From a virus, in the IMG/VR virus record IMGVR_UViG_3300025141_015211, positions 1 to 64,000 of that record: DNA of 64,000 nucleotides; one strand, given 5' to 3'. Positions within the stretch are counted from its first letter, which is position 1. The number at the start of each line of letters is the position of its first letter. Below the pieces are notes generated by a model. That model ran no database searches. It had not been told where the DNA came from and saw nothing but the letters and a program-made list of their open reading frames with translations. Made by a program: the position numbers and the translations under genes. Positions 506 to 49,838 of this stretch are shown in pieces.

Positions 506-2392
506 ATGCCTATTAAAAACTTTGGAGCAGGAACCCCTAGATTTAATGAAGGGATAGTCATTACAGGGTCAGATGTGTCCGCACTACAGGTGTATCAGGA
601 TGCATCAAGCGTTTATGCAGCTGTAATTGATAACGATGCAGGTTCTGCAGGTCATGGTTTGAAAGTGACAACGGACGGAACAGGCACAGGGACAAATATT
701 CTTGACCTAGAAGCTGGTTCAACAACTGTATTTAAAGTACGAGGTGATGGAAGAGTTGGGATAGGTGTTGATACACCTGGTTCTACACTTTCTGTCGATG
801 ATGAAATAGCTGTAGGAGAAAAACTAGTTCACAGGGGTGATCCAAACACTTACTTGCAATTTCCTTCAAATGATAACATAACGTTTGCCGCTGGGGGGAG
901 CGAAGAGCTGAAAATAGCAAGTGATGCGATACTGGTTAAACAATACATTAAGCATGACGGTGATGAAGATACACTCATCAATTTTGCTGATGATAAGATA
1001 ATCCTTAAAGCCGGCAACATAGCGATGGTTACTGCGGAGCAAAAGGACTCTGCCCCTCACGAAGTCACTATTAATGATGGAAGTAACAATATTGATTTGG
1101 TTGTTAAGGGTAATGGTTCCGGTGCAGGCAACCCCGGCATGAAGTTTGATGCATCCACAAACAGACTAGGCATTAATGGAGTAGGCACACCCGATGAAGC
1201 ATTGCATGTCTGGGGCAATATTAAAGTCGATGGAACAGAGCCGACAATTGTTTTTAATGAAAGTGGGGCTGATAGAGCTGTTATTGGTGTGAACTCTTCG
1301 GACAATATTTTGATTGAAAACAAGACAATGAATAAGCATATTGTTTTCAAAGTCAACGATCAGGGAGTAGTCAGGGAAGGTTTGCGATTGGATGGTGCAG
1401 TTGCCGAAGTCGTCGTCAACCAGAGTGCAGAGTCTTTGGTTGACTTCCGAGTAGAATCTGATAACAAGACGCATGCCCTATTTGTTGACGGAAGCAGCGA
1501 AAAGGTCTTTGTTCTTTCAGGAAGTGGTGTCACTGGGGGCGACGGGCTTGATGTAAACTTCTTTGTGTCTGGATCAACAAATTCAAAAGGCACTGCAACG
1601 GCAGGCACTGCTGTCTTTGGAGGAGACACAGCTGTATCTGGTAATTTATATGTAGTAGATACGGGAGGACTATACGCAGACAAAATAAGAAGATACTCAG
1701 ATAGTGACAACACTACTAAAATACTTCTTAATGATGAACTACTTAAATTTTATGCTGGACATTCATCAAATGATATTGTACGCATTGGTGAGACAAACTA
1801 TGGTGATGATAACAACTTCTGGGTGTCTGGGTCAATAGGATCAAAAGGCACAGCAACAAGAGGTGTTGCAGTGTTTGGAGGAGACTTAATTGTTAGCGGC
1901 GGTCTCGACGTTGACGGTATGACACTTGTTGTAGACGAATCTACAAATATGGTAGGTGTAGGCACGGGATCGCCTAAAACTATATTAGATGTACATCACA
2001 ATCCTACTTCGCTATCCAACGACACGGGAGGTGGAGAAGTGGTAACTTTTGGTACAGGAAACTTAACAGCAGGTAAATTATACTTTCTCAATAGCAGCGG
2101 TGCTTGGACAGAGACAGACGCAGATTCAATCACTACGAGTGATGGTTTGCTGGGTATTGCACTCGGTGCCGCTCCTTCAGATGGTGTTCTATTGCGCGGC
2201 TTCTTTGATGCCACTACATACCTTTCTAACTTTGTATCAGGGCTACCTGTATACCTTTCCACAACTGCAGCTTCCATGGATACAACAGCGCCTTCTGGGG
2301 CATCAGACATAGTAAGGTGTGTCGGGTACTGCACAAATACGGCAAATGTTATATATTTTAACCCAGAATCGACTACACTGGAATTATCATAG
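506..2392 (+). CDS. tail fibre-like structural protein, 628 aa
   Basis: A long Gly/Ser/Thr/Asp-rich, beta-prone protein typical of phage fibres, preceded by GGAGG and an ATG at 506. Short units of the type VSG..SKGTAT.G.AVFGGD..VSG occur twice (about residues 351-383 and 437-469). Other stretches (GRVGIGVDTPGSTLSV, NRLGINGVGTPDEALHV, MVGVGTGSPKTILDV) are variants of the LGIG...P...L.V repeat found in many fibre and adhesin shafts. No signal peptide. The next gene begins on the base after the stop codon, so the two are co-translated and probably act in the same appendage. It is likely a receptor-binding or shaft component; the exact position in the virion cannot be read from sequence. Confidence 0.8.
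   Translation: MPIKNFGAGTPRFNEGIVITGSDVSALQVYQDASSVYAAVIDNDAGSAGHGLKVTTDGTGTGTNILDLEAGSTTVFKVRGDGRVGIGVDTPGSTLSVDDEIAVGEKLVHRGDPNTYLQFPSNDNITFAAGGSEELKIASDAILVKQYIKHDGDEDTLINFADDKIILKAGNIAMVTAEQKDSAPHEVTINDGSNNIDLVVKGNGSGAGNPGMKFDASTNRLGINGVGTPDEALHVWGNIKVDGTEPTIVFNESGADRAVIGVNSSDNILIENKTMNKHIVFKVNDQGVVREGLRLDGAVAEVVVNQSAESLVDFRVESDNKTHALFVDGSSEKVFVLSGSGVTGGDGLDVNFFVSGSTNSKGTATAGTAVFGGDTAVSGNLYVVDTGGLYADKIRRYSDSDNTTKILLNDELLKFYAGHSSNDIVRIGETNYGDDNNFWVSGSIGSKGTATRGVAVFGGDLIVSGGLDVDGMTLVVDESTNMVGVGTGSPKTILDVHHNPTSLSNDTGGGEVVTFGTGNLTAGKLYFLNSSGAWTETDADSITTSDGLLGIALGAAPSDGVLLRGFFDATTYLSNFVSGLPVYLSTTAASMDTTAPSGASDIVRCVGYCTNTANVIYFNPESTTLELS
1556..1912 (+). repeat. two diverged ~33-residue repeats in the tail fibre
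   Basis: Coding repeats at 1556-1654 and 1814-1912, 258 nt apart. Both encode F(F/W)VSGS followed by SKGTAT, a residue, G, then AVFGGD and VSG. They differ at many third positions, so they are old duplications held by selection on the protein and not a recent DNA duplication. They could recombine with similar units in other fibres. Confidence 0.75.
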
Positions 2393-6880: not shown

Positions 6881-7579
6881 ATGAGAATCACACATACCCG
6901 ACTAATGAAGTTTCTACGTGAAGCAATTGAGCTAAGCGATGACAGTAGAGAAAAAGCAATCGCTGCATTAAAACAGAGGCTTGAAGATGAAGGTGGCGCC
7001 ATGGGTTCTGAAGAAGCCAAAGAAACTGCACAAAATGCTGCAGGTGTCAAAATGGGTGACGAAGACTTTGAGGCACTGGCACAAGATGCTGACATTAAAA
7101 CACACAAGTCGGGTGATGTTGTAGATACAACAGGCCTTGCAGAAGGGAACAAAATGAAAATAACACGCAGACAATTAAGAAAGATTATCAAGGAAGAGTT
7201 AAGCAACACAGTTAACGAATCCATTGCTGATATGTCAGACATGGAGCGGCTGATCGGGGATTTAGCAGGAGAAGTAGCTGACAAATTTGGTGAAGCTATG
7301 GAGTCTCTCTGGGATGAAGACACCGCAATGATGCGTCAGCAAGGTTACACAGATAAATCGCAGTGGACCCGTCAAGTTGGTAGTGCAGAGATTCAGCTTG
7401 AGGAAACGATCCAGAACATGGTGACCCAAGCCATTAACGATATAGAAATGAGACTTCATGGTGGAGACTATTATGACAGTCGTGATGATGTGTCTTCGAT
7501 GGGTGGGCCCGACAGAGATAGTGACGGTGCACTTGACGCAGACGAGCTAAGAAGTATTGCTGATGATTTAGAAGGATAA
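6881..7579 (+). CDS. tagged protein with two targeting-type segments, 232 aa
   Basis: Starts MRITHTRLMKFLREAIEL. At 7154 there is an internal in-frame ATG followed by MKITRRQLRKIIKEEL and preceded by GAAGGGA, so a second start producing a 142-residue product is plausible. Between them lies an acidic helical stretch. The C-terminus (DRDSDGALDADELRSIADDLEG) matches an EF-hand-like calcium loop with D-x-D-x-D-G-x-L-D. Body function unknown; an internal virion protein is likely from the tag. Confidence 0.7.
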   Translation: MRITHTRLMKFLREAIELSDDSREKAIAALKQRLEDEGGAMGSEEAKETAQNAAGVKMGDEDFEALAQDADIKTHKSGDVVDTTGLAEGNKMKITRRQLRKIIKEELSNTVNESIADMSDMERLIGDLAGEVADKFGEAMESLWDEDTAMMRQQGYTDKSQWTRQVGSAEIQLEETIQNMVTQAINDIEMRLHGGDYYDSRDDVSSMGGPDRDSDGALDADELRSIADDLEG

Positions 7580-7583
7580 ACAA

Positions 7584-8531
7584 ATGAAAATCACACGTAA
7601 GCAATTAAGACAGATCATCAAGGAAAATGTTGCACTTGTTAATGAAGGTAATAAAAAAAATGTTGGTGAGACGAATAGTGAAATCAAACATGAAGATGTT
7701 AAAAACTTTCCACATGAAAAGCTTTCAACTGGTAGATTTATAGTTGTAAGCAAGCCCGAGCTTACTAAACTCGGTGGTGGGAAGGTTGCGCTCACTAAGC
7801 TAGCTAAAAAATACAATTTTAAAAATTACAAAACTACAGTGCACTTTAAAGAAGGTAAGTACTTTGGTGTTGTAATTTTTGAGCTAAAACCTAAAAAATC
7901 TGCCCCGCCGCCAAAAGGAAGCGAAAAGAAAATCATAGGACAAGATCTTGAATATATCGGACCTAAGATTAAGAAACTAGGTAAAAAGATGTCAGATTAT
8001 GTTTACTATAATTTGTCAACAGGATACGTAGTGGCATTTCTTAAGGATAGCCAGGATTTAAAAGCCTGGGTAAAGCGCTTGCCTAATGCAAAAGAAGCAG
8101 AATTTAGTCAAGAAGAGTTGCAAAGTGCATACAACTATAAAATGCCTGGTTTACATGAAGTCACACGCAAACAATTAAGACAGCTCATTAAAGAAGTCAT
8201 CAGTGATGACCAAGACTTTCTCCACTACGAGACTGATGCGGTGTATGCTGAATTAGTGGATCTCCTCGACGACATCGCAGCACCCAGCTGGATCAGACAG
8301 AATCTTGAAGATGGTCTTACGAAAGATCAGATAATAGCAAAGGCCCGGCGAGGTGAAGTGCGATCTAGAGAGTGGATGTCGACTGACTCAGACGGTGACG
8401 ACTATCCCAAGACTGTTGGCTATACTGATCCAAAGGGTGAAAAGCAGATGATCGTCGTCAACTCTTTAGACGATATGAATGACATCCTTGACTTATTAGC
8501 AGATCGTGACATCCCATACAGCGTAGACTAG
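7584..8531 (+). CDS. tagged two-part protein, 315 aa
   Basis: N-terminus MKITRKQLRQIIKENVAL. A second copy without a methionine, EVTRKQLRQLIKEVIS, occurs at about residues 192-207, splitting the protein into two bodies. The first has basic beta/alpha segments (YKTTVHFKEGKYFGVVIFELK). The second is acidic and helical, ending SLDDMNDILDLLADRDIPY. The layout suggests two cargo domains each behind its own tag. AAGGA precedes the ATG. Confidence 0.7.
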   Translation: MKITRKQLRQIIKENVALVNEGNKKNVGETNSEIKHEDVKNFPHEKLSTGRFIVVSKPELTKLGGGKVALTKLAKKYNFKNYKTTVHFKEGKYFGVVIFELKPKKSAPPPKGSEKKIIGQDLEYIGPKIKKLGKKMSDYVYYNLSTGYVVAFLKDSQDLKAWVKRLPNAKEAEFSQEELQSAYNYKMPGLHEVTRKQLRQLIKEVISDDQDFLHYETDAVYAELVDLLDDIAAPSWIRQNLEDGLTKDQIIAKARRGEVRSREWMSTDSDGDDYPKTVGYTDPKGEKQMIVVNSLDDMNDILDLLADRDIPYSVD

Positions 8532-12822: not shown

Positions 12823-14013
12823 ATGACAATACCTTCAATTTTACTATCGCTGTGCTTAGGCAATGCTCTAGCATCAGACTTATCTGACAGCGAAACTTCG
12901 TACACAGGTGCGACTATCCTCGAAGGAGACTGGGATGTAACGTTTGAAAATAGCGTTGACATCTCCGGCAGTGAGGAACGATTTCCGTACGCATTCTTCG
13001 AAGGGAACACGCTCTACGTCGGTAACTCGGACATTTACGATAACACTATTGATGCCATCGTTGAGTTCTTCTGGTTCGAATCATCGATCGATAGAGGTAC
13101 AGATTTTTATGTTGCCGTCATCAAGACTCGGGTTACTCCGGGACACAACTGTTACTACGCGCCATGGGATTGGGCTCGTGGGGCACAATGTAAACTTTGG
13201 GCGGACGAGTGGTCGGATTGGGGTGAATATCCCGTTATAAGCGTTGAAGCCATGACAGATATTGAGCGTGAGCAGGGCGCTTTTAGATGGGATTGGTCAG
13301 TTCCGTTTGAGAGTTATGGTATTGATGCTTACGGTCAGGTGACGTTCCAGAACAAATATGGCATCGGATCAGATTCTGAAGGCGCAGTTATGGCACATGC
13401 CGCCTATCCCCTGGATGAAGACGGTGACATGAAGGCTGAGGGCAATGTCCAGGTTAAGGGGTACCACTCTTCAGAGTATTCTGTGCAGACACAGTATGAG
13501 GTGACGTTATATGAATGGGACGTCTCTGTGGATGGTAGAGCAGACTTGATGGCTTGGGATATGTATCTTAACCTTGGAGCAAGAGAAACACAATCTGCCT
13601 ACCACGAGTACTTCTTAAGTGTACAGGTTGAAGAAGGTCAGCCTTTTATGATTGATGAGTTTAACTTTGTTGGGAATTTTGACACCGGGTGGTACGATCC
13701 CTTTCACTATGAATTAGGTTTGTCACTTGAAGGTCTTACAATATCTCAACCCTATTACGAACCAGCAAGCGAAGATCATGGCGAAGAAGATGAACCTGTC
13801 ACAGAATCTGAAGATACGGGTGACGTAGACACAGGCGATAGTGAAGAAGAGCAGGAACAGGATGAAGGCACTGACTACGGAGAAGGAATGACAAATCTCG
13901 ATGAGTACAACCATGCAAAAGACACTACAGGCGGTTGCTCTACTATAAACACTACTAGTGTTCCTTGGTTTGTCTCGCTTCTCTTACCATTAGCGTTCAT
14001 ACGCAAACAGTAG
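12823..14013 (+). CDS. secreted protein with MYXO-CTERM-like C-terminal anchor, 396 aa
   Basis: An N-terminal signal sequence (MTIPSILLSLCLGNALA) leads into an aromatic, beta-rich body with many W/Y/D residues. Near residues 318-355 is a Glu/Asp/Gly/Thr linker. The end has the three-part layout of a sorting tail: GGCS (C372), hydrophobic VPWFVSLLLPLAFI, then RKQ. Such tails are typical of surface proteins in Myxococcota and relatives. Reading frame and composition fit the neighbours, so it is a resident gene. Likely exported and surface-anchored in the host. It could modify the envelope or block superinfection; no enzyme motif seen. Confidence 0.75.
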   Translation: MTIPSILLSLCLGNALASDLSDSETSYTGATILEGDWDVTFENSVDISGSEERFPYAFFEGNTLYVGNSDIYDNTIDAIVEFFWFESSIDRGTDFYVAVIKTRVTPGHNCYYAPWDWARGAQCKLWADEWSDWGEYPVISVEAMTDIEREQGAFRWDWSVPFESYGIDAYGQVTFQNKYGIGSDSEGAVMAHAAYPLDEDGDMKAEGNVQVKGYHSSEYSVQTQYEVTLYEWDVSVDGRADLMAWDMYLNLGARETQSAYHEYFLSVQVEEGQPFMIDEFNFVGNFDTGWYDPFHYELGLSLEGLTISQPYYEPASEDHGEEDEPVTESEDTGDVDTGDSEEEQEQDEGTDYGEGMTNLDEYNHAKDTTGGCSTINTTSVPWFVSLLLPLAFIRKQ

Positions 14014-19500: not shown

Positions 19501-19857
19501 TTGATTACAGACTACCCTAAATTCTTTATCGGCTTTTTTCTATTTACGCTTGGGCACACATTTGCATGGTTTCAGCTTAACTCTCAATTTGTTTGGGAAT
19601 GGTGGCAAAACAAACCTGTGCACGCAACGCTTATTTTCTCTATCCCAATTGGTTTTTCTTTCTGGTATGGTGTGAATTACATGTACCAGGCGATGAATGA
19701 GTTGTGGGGGCCTCGTCTTGTCGCCTTTGGTGCTTCTTATCTCGTATTCCCTCTCCTCACATGGCTGCTAGCAGGGGAGACAATGTTTACACCTAAGACA
19801 TTGATATGCATTTTCTTATCCATTATGATTGTAATGGTTCAGCTCTTCTGGAACTAG
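19501..19857 (+). CDS. four-span membrane protein, 118 aa
   Basis: TTG start at 19501. Four hydrophobic segments: FFIGFFLFTLGHTFAWF, ATLIFSIPIGFSFWYGV, LVAFGASYLVFPLLTWLL and LICIFLSIMIVMVQLFW. The pattern matches small inner-membrane proteins of the DMT/DUF486 type (short four-helix proteins), with which it shares size and the aromatic first helix; this identification is tentative. Why a phage keeps it is unclear; superinfection exclusion or ion balance are guesses. Confidence 0.65.
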   Translation: MITDYPKFFIGFFLFTLGHTFAWFQLNSQFVWEWWQNKPVHATLIFSIPIGFSFWYGVNYMYQAMNELWGPRLVAFGASYLVFPLLTWLLAGETMFTPKTLICIFLSIMIVMVQLFWN

Positions 19858-20081: not shown

Positions 20082-23024
20082 GTGCATTTAAAAAGACAAC
20101 AGCTTAGACAAATTATTAAAGAAGTACTTACTGAATCAACTGAGCTTGATAAGGCACTATACGGTTCTCTTGAGAAAGTTATAGCGGGTTCTAACTTCTG
20201 GCAGCAAGGAAACACAGAAGACGACGGTGACTACGAAGATGTCCCGGGTCTGGGCTTAATGCACCAAACAAGTGCTGCTCAATATCTGCAAGACACACTA
20301 CAAAATGCAATCAACAATGCGGAGCAAGATATTATTATAGCAGTCCAGTCACCTGAATTGGATGCTAATCCGGGCTTCCTGTTAACCCCAGATAAACCGC
20401 AGTATCCTGACAGTGTTATATCAGGTGGCTACGCGACAGTTACACCAGATGGCAAACAGGCAGTGGTTCTCAACATGTCACTGTTTGACGACTCTTTTAA
20501 TGATGACGACGTTAATGCTCAAAGAATAGCTCGAAAGGGTGCAGCAATCTTGAGACATGAGATAGTACACCTTCAACAGGTTGCAGCACGAGCCGAGTCT
20601 GAAGGTATTAGTTTGCTCGATGCGTTTGAAAACTTTAAAAAGGAACCTAAGTCAATCCCACCATCCGGTGCTGGACGTCAACAGTATATTAAGTCACACA
20701 TCGAAGTCGACGCACACGCTCACCAGGCTGCCGATGAGTTGTTATCTCTTTACGGCAAGGAAGAAGCACTTAGACTTATATCAAAGACAGTTGACTTTGA
20801 GGACTTAGGTGTTGACTTACCTCACGCTATTGAAGATTATCTAATAGACAATCCTTCTGGAAAAACCGCGCGTCAGTTTAGAAAGAAGGTGTATGAATAC
20901 ATTAACTCGATAAGCGAGAAACTTAGTGAGGCAAGCGACCCTGATTCGTGGTTTGGTACGGGCTTCAAGCTTGGTACTAGCGTCAATCTCAAAAAAGACA
21001 TAAACGTTGAAGGAACTTTAATTGGTGAAAAAGGACAGTACAAACTTGTCTTGTGGTCAAAGAGTGTATCAAAACTAATGCGCTCAGGTCAGGAAATTAT
21101 TACGAAAAAGTCTAAACAAAACATCAAAATGTTTAAGCTTGCAAAAGGATTTACTCAAGCTTCACTAGAAAGAGTTATCAACAATCCTGAAAAAGGTGTA
21201 TTGACAATAGAAACTACGAGTACGATTGTCCCTCAGGGGTCAACAGGCAAAACAGCGCGTGGATCGCGAGGTGAGAGTACTGTTGGTGAGCTAACGAATA
21301 TTAAAGATCTTGCTTTAGAAATTACAGGGATCCAATTTGCATGGGACTTTGGTAGTGCAATCGGAAGACTTAATACTGCGCTAGCAGCGTTTGCAAGATC
21401 CAATCTACACCCATCTGAACGTGAAAGTTATAAAAAAGAGTTAGACGAAGCATTTGTTCAGCTTGCATTTCTTGTTATAGTAACTGCCGTGATTTTAGTT
21501 TCATTTGGAATAGGTAAGATAGCTGTACAAACACTTGCTTCACGATTTCCGATCTTGTCACGTAACATCACAAAAGCTGGTATCGCGGCCAGCGGTAAGG
21601 CTTCGGACCCTACACCTTCAGAAATCAAATACCCTACACCTTCAGAGATCAAAGCAGCTAGGCAATCACTTACAAATTTTAAAGAAACAAGACTATCTAA
21701 AGCTGGAGTGAGTACAAACACTGGTCTTGCAAAAGAAATTGCTGATGAAGCTATAAAGGCAGCAGACAAACTATATGGCGCTGGGAAAGGTGTTATAGCA
21801 CTTCCTACTAATCGACAACCTCCGGTTCCTAAAATTAAAAAATCAGATGCACTAAGAAGCATGTCTATTGTAGATAGAGTAGCAATTGAAAAACAGGTTG
21901 GTGGGAAACTCTTGAGTAAAGCAGGTGCGGGTGCTGACGGTGAGGTTTTCATCATTCGATTAGATGATGCTATCGGCATTCACAAAGAGGTTGCACTTAA
22001 AATTATTGGCAACATGTCTCCCGACTCAAACATGAAAGCTGCACGGTGGATATTAAAGAAGCGAGCATCACTAGATGCAGACACAGCAAAATACCTTCCT
22101 CGCGTTTTAAAAATCGGTAAGTTAAAGTTGCAAGGAGAATTTAATGTCGAACCGCATTACATTGTAATGGAGCGACTTTTACCTTTGCCGTCGAGTGTCA
22201 GGAAATTATTTCTCGACACAGAAAAAAATATCTCACAAAAGATTTTAAAAGATCCTGATTTATTTGACAGCTATATTGATGTATTTGTCACACAACTTCG
22301 CAAATCGTTAGATAATAGACTAACAGGTATTATGGGTCCTGGTGCTACCAATAACATAAAGAGTATTGTCATAAAGGTCGCAAATAACCCTAAGACTGTA
22401 TCGCCAGAAGCAAATGCACTTTTTAATAAAATTGACTGGTCTCAAGTCAACCTGATCAACCAGCCAGCGCAAAAAGAAAGTCTTAAAAAAATTGTCCCTG
22501 GTGTCTTAGAGTATCTAGTGAAGCTTAGGAAAACTGTAAAGTTTGAAACACGCCAGAGAGAAAAAGCCAATAAAGATGTCTCGAACGTCTACAAATATCT
22601 TAAATTATTAGACGATGAAATTGCAAGAATTTCAAGTACTCGTTTTTGGGTGCATTCTCGTGGAAGCCTCGGTAAATTTACGCCAAGCGTAGGGTCGCCA
22701 CCTGGTACAGCAAGGAGTATTGGTAGAAATTTAGGTGATACGACAATTGCTGATACAATTGGAGCGTCAGCTGCTGAATCTGATCCTGCTGTAAAGGGTG
22801 CTATAAATGCAATGGCGAAGCTCGAGGCGGCTGGATTCCAACCGATGGACCTTCATAGTGAAAATTGGTTACTACGGCCTGGTTCGGGGGAAATAGTAAT
22901 GGCAGACTTTGGAAGATTTAATGTGAAATGGGCAGGAGCCCAAAGCGGTAGATCTATAAAAGAAGCACACGAACTTACTCTAAGAAAGTTGATCCAGCAA
23001 ATGTCTAAGGATCTTACAGAATGA
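20082..23024 (+). CDS. tagged 980-aa protein: zinc-metallopeptidase motif plus protein-kinase domain
   Basis: GTG start giving the tag MHLKRQQLRQIIKEVL. Residues 159-163 are HEIVH, with a possible third ligand at E208 (SHIEVDAHAHQAADELL), the layout of a small zincin. A hydrophobic segment (AFLVIVTAVILVSFGIGKI) lies near residues 464-482. From about residue 605 there is a protein-kinase-like domain: glycine loop AGAGADGEVF (about 611-620), VALKII with the ATP-binding Lys near 640, hinge YIVMERLLPL, catalytic DLHSEN (D923, N927) and ADFG (D942). The C-terminus EAHELTLRKLIQQ echoes the tag. Likely head cargo released into the host. Kinase activity is predicted, not shown. Confidence 0.8.
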   Translation: MHLKRQQLRQIIKEVLTESTELDKALYGSLEKVIAGSNFWQQGNTEDDGDYEDVPGLGLMHQTSAAQYLQDTLQNAINNAEQDIIIAVQSPELDANPGFLLTPDKPQYPDSVISGGYATVTPDGKQAVVLNMSLFDDSFNDDDVNAQRIARKGAAILRHEIVHLQQVAARAESEGISLLDAFENFKKEPKSIPPSGAGRQQYIKSHIEVDAHAHQAADELLSLYGKEEALRLISKTVDFEDLGVDLPHAIEDYLIDNPSGKTARQFRKKVYEYINSISEKLSEASDPDSWFGTGFKLGTSVNLKKDINVEGTLIGEKGQYKLVLWSKSVSKLMRSGQEIITKKSKQNIKMFKLAKGFTQASLERVINNPEKGVLTIETTSTIVPQGSTGKTARGSRGESTVGELTNIKDLALEITGIQFAWDFGSAIGRLNTALAAFARSNLHPSERESYKKELDEAFVQLAFLVIVTAVILVSFGIGKIAVQTLASRFPILSRNITKAGIAASGKASDPTPSEIKYPTPSEIKAARQSLTNFKETRLSKAGVSTNTGLAKEIADEAIKAADKLYGAGKGVIALPTNRQPPVPKIKKSDALRSMSIVDRVAIEKQVGGKLLSKAGAGADGEVFIIRLDDAIGIHKEVALKIIGNMSPDSNMKAARWILKKRASLDADTAKYLPRVLKIGKLKLQGEFNVEPHYIVMERLLPLPSSVRKLFLDTEKNISQKILKDPDLFDSYIDVFVTQLRKSLDNRLTGIMGPGATNNIKSIVIKVANNPKTVSPEANALFNKIDWSQVNLINQPAQKESLKKIVPGVLEYLVKLRKTVKFETRQREKANKDVSNVYKYLKLLDDEIARISSTRFWVHSRGSLGKFTPSVGSPPGTARSIGRNLGDTTIADTIGASAAESDPAVKGAINAMAKLEAAGFQPMDLHSENWLLRPGSGEIVMADFGRFNVKWAGAQSGRSIKEAHELTLRKLIQQMSKDLTE
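21607..21654 (+). repeat. 24-bp tandem duplication in linker
   Basis: Two consecutive 24-bp units (21607-21630 and 21631-21654) encode DPTPSEIK and YPTPSEIK in the linker between the membrane segment and the kinase domain. They differ at only a few bases, indicating a fairly recent slip or duplication in a flexible region. Confidence 0.75.
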
Positions 23025-27548: not shown

Positions 27549-28130
27549 ATGTTTTTTCTTTCATTAGTTCTAAGTACAACACTAGTTGCTTCTGATTATC
27601 CTGAAAGCAACAGGTCGTCTGTAAGATACGTACATCCTTCTTACTTTGAAGTTAAAGAAGATAATGCTGAAAAATTTGCAAATTGGAAATCAAAGCCCGA
27701 TGTTAAAGTATGCAATCACGCACCTGTTACAATAGCTCAAGTTGAAAAAGCACTGTCATGGTGGGAAGACTTAGGGTATAAGTTTGGTTATATCTACAAA
27801 TCAAGTTGTGTTGAAAACGCACACTATGGAAATATAGTAATCAGCCTCGCAGGACAAGACTTTAAATTTGACAAAAGTTATGGATCAACAAGCATGCACT
27901 ATGATACTGAGACACGTCAAGCACATTGGGCACAAATATTTCTGCCAGAGAAAGTTAGAGAGCGTGTACTAGAACATGAAATAGGGCATGCACTAGGTTG
28001 GCATCATTCTGCACAGAAGGGGCACATACTTTACCCTAGCTGGCAACTTGGCGGATGGAATAGTGATGGACTTAAAGTCCCGACATTGAATCTTAATCGT
28101 TCAAAATCTTCTTCAAAAAATCCTTTGTGA
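27549..28130 (+). CDS. secreted matrixin-like zinc metalloprotease, 193 aa
   Basis: Signal peptide MFFLSLVLSTTLVA. The active site is HEIGHALGWHH: H143, E144, H147, G150 and H153 follow HExxHxxGxxH. The expected Met-turn position reads HILYPSW, with Leu where Met is usual, an unusual but not unique change. About 190 residues fits a bare matrixin catalytic domain without a pro-domain hallmark. Likely degrades envelope, periplasmic or external proteins. It converges with the gene 28093-28320 (38-nt overlap). Confidence 0.8.
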   Translation: MFFLSLVLSTTLVASDYPESNRSSVRYVHPSYFEVKEDNAEKFANWKSKPDVKVCNHAPVTIAQVEKALSWWEDLGYKFGYIYKSSCVENAHYGNIVISLAGQDFKFDKSYGSTSMHYDTETRQAHWAQIFLPEKVRERVLEHEIGHALGWHHSAQKGHILYPSWQLGGWNSDGLKVPTLNLNRSKSSSKNPL

Positions 28131-39443: not shown

Positions 39444-40205
39444 TTACCCCTTTGCGATTTGCTGAATTGTTTCTTTAGTAGCTTCAAAGTCGCTGCTAGC
39501 GACTAAATCATCAGAAATTCCAAACCTAAGCCTCAAAATTTTCTCTTCACGCTCAGATAGCCCTTCCAGGCAATTTTTTATTGCAATCATAATCTTTTCT
39601 TTATCAAGCTCACTATCAATATTTACAGCTTCATCGTCAACAATCACTTCAAGTAATGTGCGCCCTTCTGAATCTGTCCACGGATTTGTATCTAGTGACA
39701 TAATTTTTGTCAAATTTATGGACTCTATGCTGGCACGTATCATACCGTCAGACACGCCTAAAAGATCTGCAAGTTCGTTTACAGTGGGTAACTGTCCAAA
39801 CTCTTCTTCATATTCAACATTTAACTTCTGTATTTTCCAAGCAATGCTTGCTGTATGTGACGGGATCCTCACTGTGTTTCTATGCATGCTTACATGTCTA
39901 CTAACAGCTTGTCTAATCCACCAACATGCATATGTAGAAAACTTAAAGCCGCGACGCCAGTCAAACCGATCAACTGCTTTCATTAGACCAATATTTGATT
40001 CTTGAATTAGATCTTCAAAGTCACAGCCACGTTTTGCATATTTTTTTGCAATGCTTATCGCAAGCCTTAAATTTGCTTCTATCATACGATCTCTTGCAGA
40101 TTGATCTCCTTTTTCTATTGCTTTCGCAAGAACAACTTCCTGTTCTCTTGACAAAAGACTGTTTCTGGATACGTCTTTAAAATAAGAATCTAAAATATTC
40201 GCCAT
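39444..40205 (-). CDS. sigma-70-family factor lacking region 4.2, 253 aa
   Basis: Region 1.2 (DSYFKDVSRNSLLSREQE), region 2 (ANLRLAISIAKKYAKRGCDF, DLIQESNIGLMKAVDRFDW, FKFSTYACWWIRQAV), region 3.0 (NTVRIPSH) and region 4.1 (LSEREEKILRLRFGI) are clear. The chain then ends (ETIQQIAKG) where the region 4.2 helix-turn-helix should begin, so the usual -35 reader is absent. It probably directs host RNA polymerase to phage promoters. Its own promoter carries GTGTAT and TATAAT. The HTH gene behind it may complete it. Confidence 0.88.
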   Translation of the reverse strand: MANILDSYFKDVSRNSLLSREQEVVLAKAIEKGDQSARDRMIEANLRLAISIAKKYAKRGCDFEDLIQESNIGLMKAVDRFDWRRGFKFSTYACWWIRQAVSRHVSMHRNTVRIPSHTASIAWKIQKLNVEYEEEFGQLPTVNELADLLGVSDGMIRASIESINLTKIMSLDTNPWTDSEGRTLLEVIVDDEAVNIDSELDKEKIMIAIKNCLEGLSEREEKILRLRFGISDDLVASSDFEATKETIQQIAKG

Positions 40206-41638: not shown

Positions 41639-43444
<1,806 letters not shown>

Positions 43445-49004: not shown

Positions 49005-49838
49005 TTACCCTCTTATGAAACCTCTAATAAGACTACGAAGTTGTGATTCTGCGACTTGCTTTTGCTCGTCTTCTTGACCCACTAAGATCTGAATGATCTG
49101 ATCTTTTTCATCACTGTTAAGAAATGGCGGCAAAAAGCGTTTGGCTTGGTCAGCTGTCTTTCGAGAAGAAGCAAGATTTCTAACATGAGTTCCTCTTACA
49201 GATTGTCTTGCAGCAACCTCTTCATCATCAAGCTCTTCACCCTGGCTAGCATAAAAATCTTTTAAAGCTTCACGTGCTTCATTTTCACCTTGTGACATAA
49301 GCTGGTCAAGCTTTTCTGTATAATCATCAGAGCTAGACGGAACTGCTCCGCCGAACTGAATCTTTCCGTTTTGGACGTGATCTTTGAACTTGGGACTCCT
49401 CATGTATGGTCGCATCGAGTCGGCGTCACCATAAATTGTCACCTTTTCTATCTCTCCCGGGTCGTCAACAAAGTCTTCTAACGTTTTGAAAATTGCCGTA
49501 ACGGGGGCCCGTATAGCTGCTAGATTGCCTTGCGCATCTTTTGCTTGACTTTGAACGAGAACAACTTCAACTTCAGGAATTCTTTCAAGCGCTGTTTTAT
49601 ATATGTTAAAAATATTCTGTGCAACATTTTCATCGTAAGTTCTACCTGTAGCTCCAAGCCCTCTGAACTTTTGGCGTGCTTTAAGCTGTTGACCCTTCTT
49701 TCCATACCTGGGTGGTTCAAGCTGTTGCATACCATAAAACAAATACACCTTGTCATTATCTCTGATGGCATCTGCTAATTTTGCAAAGTGTCCAGTCGTA
49801 AAGGGTTTAAAACCTCCTCCATACAGACCTAATTTCAT
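49005..49838 (-). CDS. HxGH-type nucleotidyltransferase, 277 aa, tag-like C-terminus
   Basis: MKLGLYGGGFKPFTTGHFAK carries the T-G-H nucleotide-binding motif of the cytidylyltransferase/NMNAT fold; VRGTHVRNLASSRK fits the second motif (the ISSTxxR region). C-terminus VAESQLRSLIRGFIRG resembles the LRxxI tag. One base before the ligase-like fusion gene on the same strand, so the two may form a nucleotide-transfer unit, for example NAD/AMP supply for ligation. Substrate unknown. Confidence 0.75.
   Translation of the reverse strand: MKLGLYGGGFKPFTTGHFAKLADAIRDNDKVYLFYGMQQLEPPRYGKKGQQLKARQKFRGLGATGRTYDENVAQNIFNIYKTALERIPEVEVVLVQSQAKDAQGNLAAIRAPVTAIFKTLEDFVDDPGEIEKVTIYGDADSMRPYMRSPKFKDHVQNGKIQFGGAVPSSSDDYTEKLDQLMSQGENEAREALKDFYASQGEELDDEEVAARQSVRGTHVRNLASSRKTADQAKRFLPPFLNSDEKDQIIQILVGQEDEQKQVAESQLRSLIRGFIRG

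Follow-up and report, generated by a model that had tools for sequence, protein, structure and literature searches.

A tagged 980-residue phage protein with zincin-like and protein-kinase-like modules as candidate head cargo

The locus considered here raises the question of whether a single long phage gene may encode enzymatic cargo that is loaded into the phage head and delivered to the host together with the DNA. It lies in IMG/VR virus record IMGVR_UViG_3300025141_015211 (G000; 82,588 bases, incomplete), of which a stretch of 64,000 nucleotides was analyzed as the window, and consists of an open reading frame (ORF) at positions 20082-23024 that is translated without a stop and carries an AGAGG 5' of its start codon. 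The initial annotation described the product as a protein of 980 residues combining a capsid-type tag, a zinc-peptidase motif, a hydrophobic segment and a kinase domain, and the ORF as well as all of these motifs were recovered (Table 1). Neither Pfam nor PHROGs searches with the entire ORF gave a significant match, and searches of viral contigs and named phages returned no full-length relatives. That the motifs go beyond chance is indicated by the invariance of HExxH and ExDA among 11 related sequences, a kinase homologue aligning at E 1e-11, and the recurrence of the tag MKITRRQLRQIIKEE. The explanation we favor, and consider rather probable, is that the gene encodes a tagged precursor which would be packaged, cut by a gp21-type protease and injected in pieces, whose enzymes would act early in infection. 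As far as sequence analysis goes, this is supported by the ORF itself, both active-site signatures, the conserved junction behind the tags, the avoidance of [LI]xE within the cargo, and the gp21 and gp23 homologues of a syntenic relative; packaging, cleavage, injection, catalysis and targets are what we infer from these features.

The tag MKITRRQLRQIIKEE and its variants occur in several other ORFs of the window and dozens of times in other viral contigs, and no mention of the tag sequences was found in a literature search. Zincin modules related to that of the present protein follow at least three unrelated types of tag (KITRRQLRQIIKEE; LLREYIKEVL; LLENWRKYV), and regardless of the tag type, 20 of the 23 distinct proteins contain [LI]xE directly before the zincin module; in most cases, the next residue is small or aliphatic and the one after it T or S. 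The same preference is seen in a non-redundant set of 49 proteins that carry the first type of tag, where [LI]xE followed by A, G or S occurs 23 times within 10 residues behind the tag and only 0-2 times in each later 10-residue bin, a count reached by none of 2000 shuffles. The motif corresponds to the known specificity of the T4 prohead protease gp21, which cleaves on the C-terminal side of L/I-X-E; in T4, N-terminal targeting propeptides of 10-19 residues are found on internal proteins, the tagged internal proteins are injected, and both ends of Alt are processed (PMC9026906). A corresponding protease is encoded in a syntenic 160 kb relative (G012; DnaE of 60% identity, with conserved order of this, a ThyX-like and several further genes), which, besides a tagged zincin, has a Peptidase_S77 protein (gp21 family, E 1.2e-26) and a capsid protein of the Gp23 type (E 1.8e-65). 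Peptidase_S77 and Gp23 are also present in a further record (G026), together with a zincin carrying another tag. The interpretation as head cargo is based on this combination of the gp21 cleavage motif, the T4 propeptides and the gp21 and gp23 homologues of these two phages. As side observations, the ORFs at 6881-7579 and 7584-8531 (both plus strand) each code for an N-terminal tag and a second internal one (near 7169 and 8169, respectively), making their products possible two-module cargo proteins, and a nicotinamide-nucleotide adenylyltransferase-like protein (49005-49838, minus strand; phrog_3462) has a tag-like C-terminal end, ESQLRSLIRGFIRG.

Cargo exposed to gp21 is expected to avoid the cleavage motif of this protease, and this prediction was then tested. 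In the mature parts of 80 other tagged proteins (zincins excluded), [LI]xE is found at 0.74 of the composition-based expectation, with values of 0.66-0.78 in each of three tag types, whereas untagged proteins of at least 200 amino acids from the same loci show a ratio of 1.09. None of 5000 label permutations reproduced this difference, but the shuffles and permutations treat related sequences as independent, so the significance is overstated; since the tag definitions were moreover made for the present analysis, the effect size should be given more weight than the nominal significance. Tagged proteins show no depletion of the control patterns E.[LI], [LI].D and [LI].K. For the zincin modules alone, the ratio drops to 0.39, with control patterns at 0.9-1.6. 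In the 980-residue protein, no [LI]xE is present in residues 19-276 and 457-958, compared with about seven expected (four of them in 457-958), and the eight existing copies (positions 12, 16, 277, 281, 314, 454, 959 and 978) are located at the end of the tag, just past the zincin module, inside the middle region or where it ends, and in the tail, those at 281, 314 and 454 lying between modules. Because the copies are confined to the ends and the module borders, cutting into three pieces in the prohead appears possible, and the product may thus be separated there into a peptidase and a kinase piece. The earlier reading as a capsid-type tag therefore gains substance from tag swapping at a conserved LxE junction, LxE depletion in tagged cargo and the gp21 and gp23 genes of the syntenic relative.

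Residues 19-283 probably represent a zinc peptidase, and the label zincin-like is used on the grounds of motif and conservation rather than of a matched fold. Residues 1-279 recur as separate proteins in related viral records, and two alignment-guided scans of IMG/VR revealed 34 distinct viral loci with relatives of 26-34% identity, corresponding to 23 distinct proteins, the present one included. In an alignment of 11 sequences (28-33% identity to the present protein), H159, E160, H163, Q166, E208, D210 and A211 are invariant, and it is this family-wide conservation of the active site that bears out the proposed zinc-peptidase motif of HEIVH plus a downstream Glu. The AlphaFold2 model of the module (predicted local distance difference test score, pLDDT, 80.4; predicted template modeling score, pTM, 0.80) puts HExxH on a long helix and E208 on the helix that follows, and its best viral structural match is an uncharacterized phage protein (E 0.005). 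All matches of a PDB profile search with the zincin alignment were non-significant (E 0.27 and above); known zinc metalloproteases are among them, which is not counted as kinship, and a search of named phages with a zincin relative as query gave no match. The majority of relatives have 256-311 amino acids and consist of the tagged zincin alone, but the module is also found inside larger proteins, either behind an internal tag-like helix (L024, L053, L059) or after ELTE (L027, L029, L030). The other modules of L027 and L030 show by eye R...SYS...ExE-like patterns suggestive of ADP-ribosyltransferases, which Pfam did not confirm. A second metallopeptidase of the window (27549-28130, plus strand) is matrixin-like (PF00413, E 1e-5) and has a signal-peptide-like start and no tag.

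The kinase reading was traced further by a pattern search for DLHxEN-x13-DFG, which identified a stand-alone protein of 290 residues in another phage (L021, IMGVR_UViG_3300047301_000210). This protein aligns with the kinase region at E 1e-11, shares the hinge MExLxPLPS and much of the helical insert, and likewise ends just past DFG. With a profile made from both sequences, the best PDB match is a serine/threonine protein kinase of 226 amino acids (E 8e-4), extending over the catalytic loop and DFG, and the weaker matches are mostly kinases as well, among them RIO2 and NleH1. The N-lobe is modeled in the order beta1-beta2-beta3-alphaC-beta4-beta5 with moderate pLDDT of about 50-74, and nearly all of its best Foldseek matches are to protein kinases (probability 1.00). 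The usual C-lobe is not present, and the chain ends 36 residues past DFG. These data support a pared-down protein kinase with a Bud32-like catalytic loop and DFG and a large helical insert: the kinase assignment of the initial annotation is upheld by the profile and N-lobe matches, while the domain is shorter than an ordinary kinase. Apart from L021 and a weak case (L022), no relatives of this kinase were found in viral contigs (scanned by alignment), named phages, plasmids or prokaryote genomes (scanned by pattern and alignment), and the same kinase is absent from all other zincin loci and related records fetched. L022 is an ORF of 399 residues from a different virus (L022:7119-8318, minus strand) with a kinase-like DLHIEN...DFG followed by HEFGH, hence in the reverse order; its relationship to the present kinase is weak, and it aligned poorly and was excluded from the kinase model. 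A full-length alignment that put the kinase relative on the zincin region was discarded.

Together with the hydrophobic segment, which was also predicted at the outset and is the single strong one of the entire protein (mean hydropathy 2.64), these modules may be arranged into the following scheme. An 18-residue helical propeptide resembling the T4 capsid targeting sequence would draw the precursor into the prohead core, where a gp21-type prohead protease would cut after [LI]xE, removing the tag at LTE18/S and probably the tail at IKE961/A (slashes denote putative points of cleavage). Further cuts at LSE283/A and LDE456/A are possible and would yield a zinc-peptidase piece of about residues 19-283, a middle piece, and a piece of residues 457-961 consisting of the membrane segment plus the kinase. 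The pieces would enter the host with the DNA and act ahead of phage gene expression, the peptidase by cleaving host proteins or by further processing co-packaged cargo, the kinase by phosphorylating host proteins, perhaps while anchored in the inner membrane via the hydrophobic segment. The notion of a single three-part effector thus holds with respect to the domains, and is less certain with respect to one concerted action, given the LxE positions. We only tentatively extend this scheme to a general code of cargo loading, common to large marine T4-like phages, in which swappable head-targeting helices end in L/I-x-E and payloads have come to avoid the motif by evolution; the present gene would then encode a cargo polyprotein from which the prohead protease releases a zinc peptidase, the middle part and a minimal kinase with a membrane anchor, all injected together.

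Several observations weigh against the proposed head cargo, in addition to the overstated significance values. Peptidase_S77 and Gp23 profiles gave no match in the 82.6 kb fragment, and the head genes of this phage probably lie outside of it. The zincin module matches nothing in Pfam, and Foldseek of its model against solved structures gave no significant PDB match; structure prediction for each domain, which had been suggested as a check, spoke in favor of the kinase N-lobe and left the zincin with a good model of unmatched fold. The kinase family consists of two sequences only, their AlphaFold2 model is poor overall (pLDDT 44.5) with low confidence in the half containing the catalytic loop, and no clear alphaC Glu is seen in the present copy. 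This last feature, together with the missing C-lobe, the early chain end, the large helical insert and a weak APH match of L021 (Pfam E 0.05), would also fit a pseudokinase or a small-molecule kinase, which we regard as somewhat unlikely in view of the retained Lys, catalytic Asp, Asn and DFG and of the PDB and N-lobe matches to protein kinases.

The protein might also be packaged and injected with a peptidase serving self-processing, freeing the kinase or other modules inside the host without having a host target of its own. Such a role has likewise been suggested for the zincins of polyvalent proteins and would suit the larger proteins containing the module (L024, L027, L030, L053, L059), but the predominant stand-alone tagged zincins have nothing to free in cis, and the LxE sites already let gp21 separate the modules, making this explanation unlikely. 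Another possibility is that the tags serve as assembly helices of the core or scaffold, with the zincin working in the head during assembly or maturation instead of in the host. Small proteins with tag-like helices indeed adjoin the gp21-like protease gene in G012 (MSSLTVSKLKQIIKEEKKAL, L043); however, the tagged proteins are numerous and varied, head assembly offers no obvious use for a kinase, and the tagged internal proteins of T4 are injected (PMC9026906), so that we consider this alternative quite improbable. If the kinase had been fused by chance or only recently, without having a function, its absence from all other zincin loci fetched would be explained, but this is hard to reconcile with an ORF kept intact over 980 codons, the retention of the catalytic residues and the lack of any [LI]xE in residues 457-958, and appears very improbable.

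Compared with known systems, the protein resembles the T4 internal head proteins and Alt in its short N-terminal helical propeptide ending in L/I-x-E and in the gp21 and gp23 homologues (here in a related phage), and Alt in particular in carrying an enzyme as cargo and in the processing at both ends, which is predicted here. In contrast to these proteins, the tag sequence is a different one, cuts between modules are possible, presence in the virion is a prediction, and the payload consists of a zincin and a kinase instead of the ADP-ribosyltransferase of Alt. The polyvalent proteins of phages and conjugative elements include packaged phage polypeptides with zincin domains and with C-lobe-less kinases (Iyer et al., 2017; PMC5512222), and like the present protein they combine several disparate enzymatic domains in a chain whose packaging and injection are predicted, whereas the modules described here carry a capsid tag and the gp21-type cutting motif and may be cut before injection. 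The profiles Kinase-PolyVal (PF18762) and MPTase-PolyVal (PF18818) were run against G000 and 11 related records at a cutoff of E 10 and matched none of them. The earlier statement that no phage protein with this order of domains has been described thus needs to be qualified by these proteins, and L022 shows the reverse order. Small kinases of the Bud32/RIO2 and NleH types share the profile match over the catalytic loop and DFG, the best match being of Bud32 size; the present domain differs by the large insert of helices that separates the hinge from the catalytic loop, its end soon after DFG and its inferred nature as tagged phage cargo. L021 is alike in hinge, alignable insert, DLHxEN-x13-DFG and truncated end, but is a single domain without tag or peptidase from an otherwise different phage.

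To our knowledge, few injected head proteins have a known enzymatic activity. If the proposal is true, a protein kinase would be contained in a phage head and be active before any phage gene is expressed. The combination of tag, LxE junction and LxE avoidance may allow candidate head cargo of uncultivated T4-like phages to be listed from sequence only, and the zincin family, with its 34 viral loci and at least three tag types, represents a widespread, uncharacterized and directly testable candidate effector.

Table 1. Features of the 980-residue protein, the adjoining gene and related large proteins (window positions unless a locus is named; slashes denote putative points of cleavage)
Feature	Residues	Position	Strand	Basis or remark
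ORF (tag, zincin-like module, middle region, hydrophobic segment, kinase, tag-like tail)	1-980	20082..23024	+	980 amino acids, GTG start
N-terminal capsid-targeting-type tag, end LTE/S (LTE 16-18)	1-18	20082..20135	+	tag family; conserved LxE junction
Zincin-like module	19-283	20136..20930	+	relatives, 11-sequence alignment, AlphaFold2 model
HEIVH	159-163	20556..20570	+	H159, E160, H163 invariant; in model helix 146-174
EVDA (within IEVDA); E208 candidate third zinc ligand	208-211	20703..20714	+	invariant E208, D210, A211; model helix 206-233
LSE/A, candidate prohead-protease site after zincin module	281-283	20922..20930	+	sequence
Middle region, end LDE/A (454-456)	284-456	20931..21449	+	no detected relative
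Hydrophobic segment, immediately after LDE/A	457-478	21450..21515	+	hydropathy
Protein-kinase-like domain	592-958	21855..22955	+	homologue L021, PDB profile matches, N-lobe Foldseek matches
Kinase subparts: N-lobe; helical insert; then catalytic loop, DFG; no ordinary C-lobe	592-697; about 704-905			
Glycine-rich loop AGAGADG	614-620	21921..21941	+	sequence
Candidate ATP lysine in VALKI	640	21999..22001	+	sequence; predicted third strand of N-lobe
Catalytic loop DLHSEN	923-928	22848..22865	+	DLHxEN conserved in L021
DFG	942-944	22905..22913	+	kept in L021 and Bud32-like match
IKE/A site (959-961) and tag-like C-terminal tail	962-980	22956..23021	+	sequence; analogy to T4 Alt processed at both ends (PMC9026906)
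Next gene, 4-base overlap with kinase gene; tag ending LNE/A, hydrophobic segment, tail LDE/AHALTLRSIV	299 amino acids	23021..23920	+	sequence
Large proteins with zincin behind other modules		L024:4591-7236; L027:4357-6840; L030:4360-6843; L053:4969-6825; L059:4948-6900		

The protein is closed by a second tag-like element (IKE961/AHELTLRKLIQQM...), and the same type of tail is found in the product of the next gene, which is probably a companion cargo protein as judged from its sequence. A regular-expression search returned C-terminal tags only for these two genes and for two doubtful cases. Upstream of the ORF lies a membrane-protein gene (19501-19857), which in the record G005 is also found directly upstream of a zincin, there without kinase, while the zincin of G012 and its relatives is located between homologues of the genes 69898-70344 and 70354-71325. 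With these differing neighbors, the module has thus moved and, in the present virus, been joined to a kinase.

Among the remaining genes, a set of GroEL-, DnaK- and DnaJ-like proteins was named by eye (41639-43258, minus strand; 66843-68741 and 68812-69882 of the contig, both minus strand), the DnaK-like protein sharing 63% identity with its counterpart in a related phage record. A sigma-70-type factor, also named by eye (39444-40205, minus strand), is 49% identical to one in G005. Finally, the ORF at 12823-14013 (plus strand) codes for a predicted secreted protein whose end, CSTINTTSVPWFVSLLLPLAFIRKQ, resembles a MYXO-CTERM anchor, a feature that may hint at the host group.
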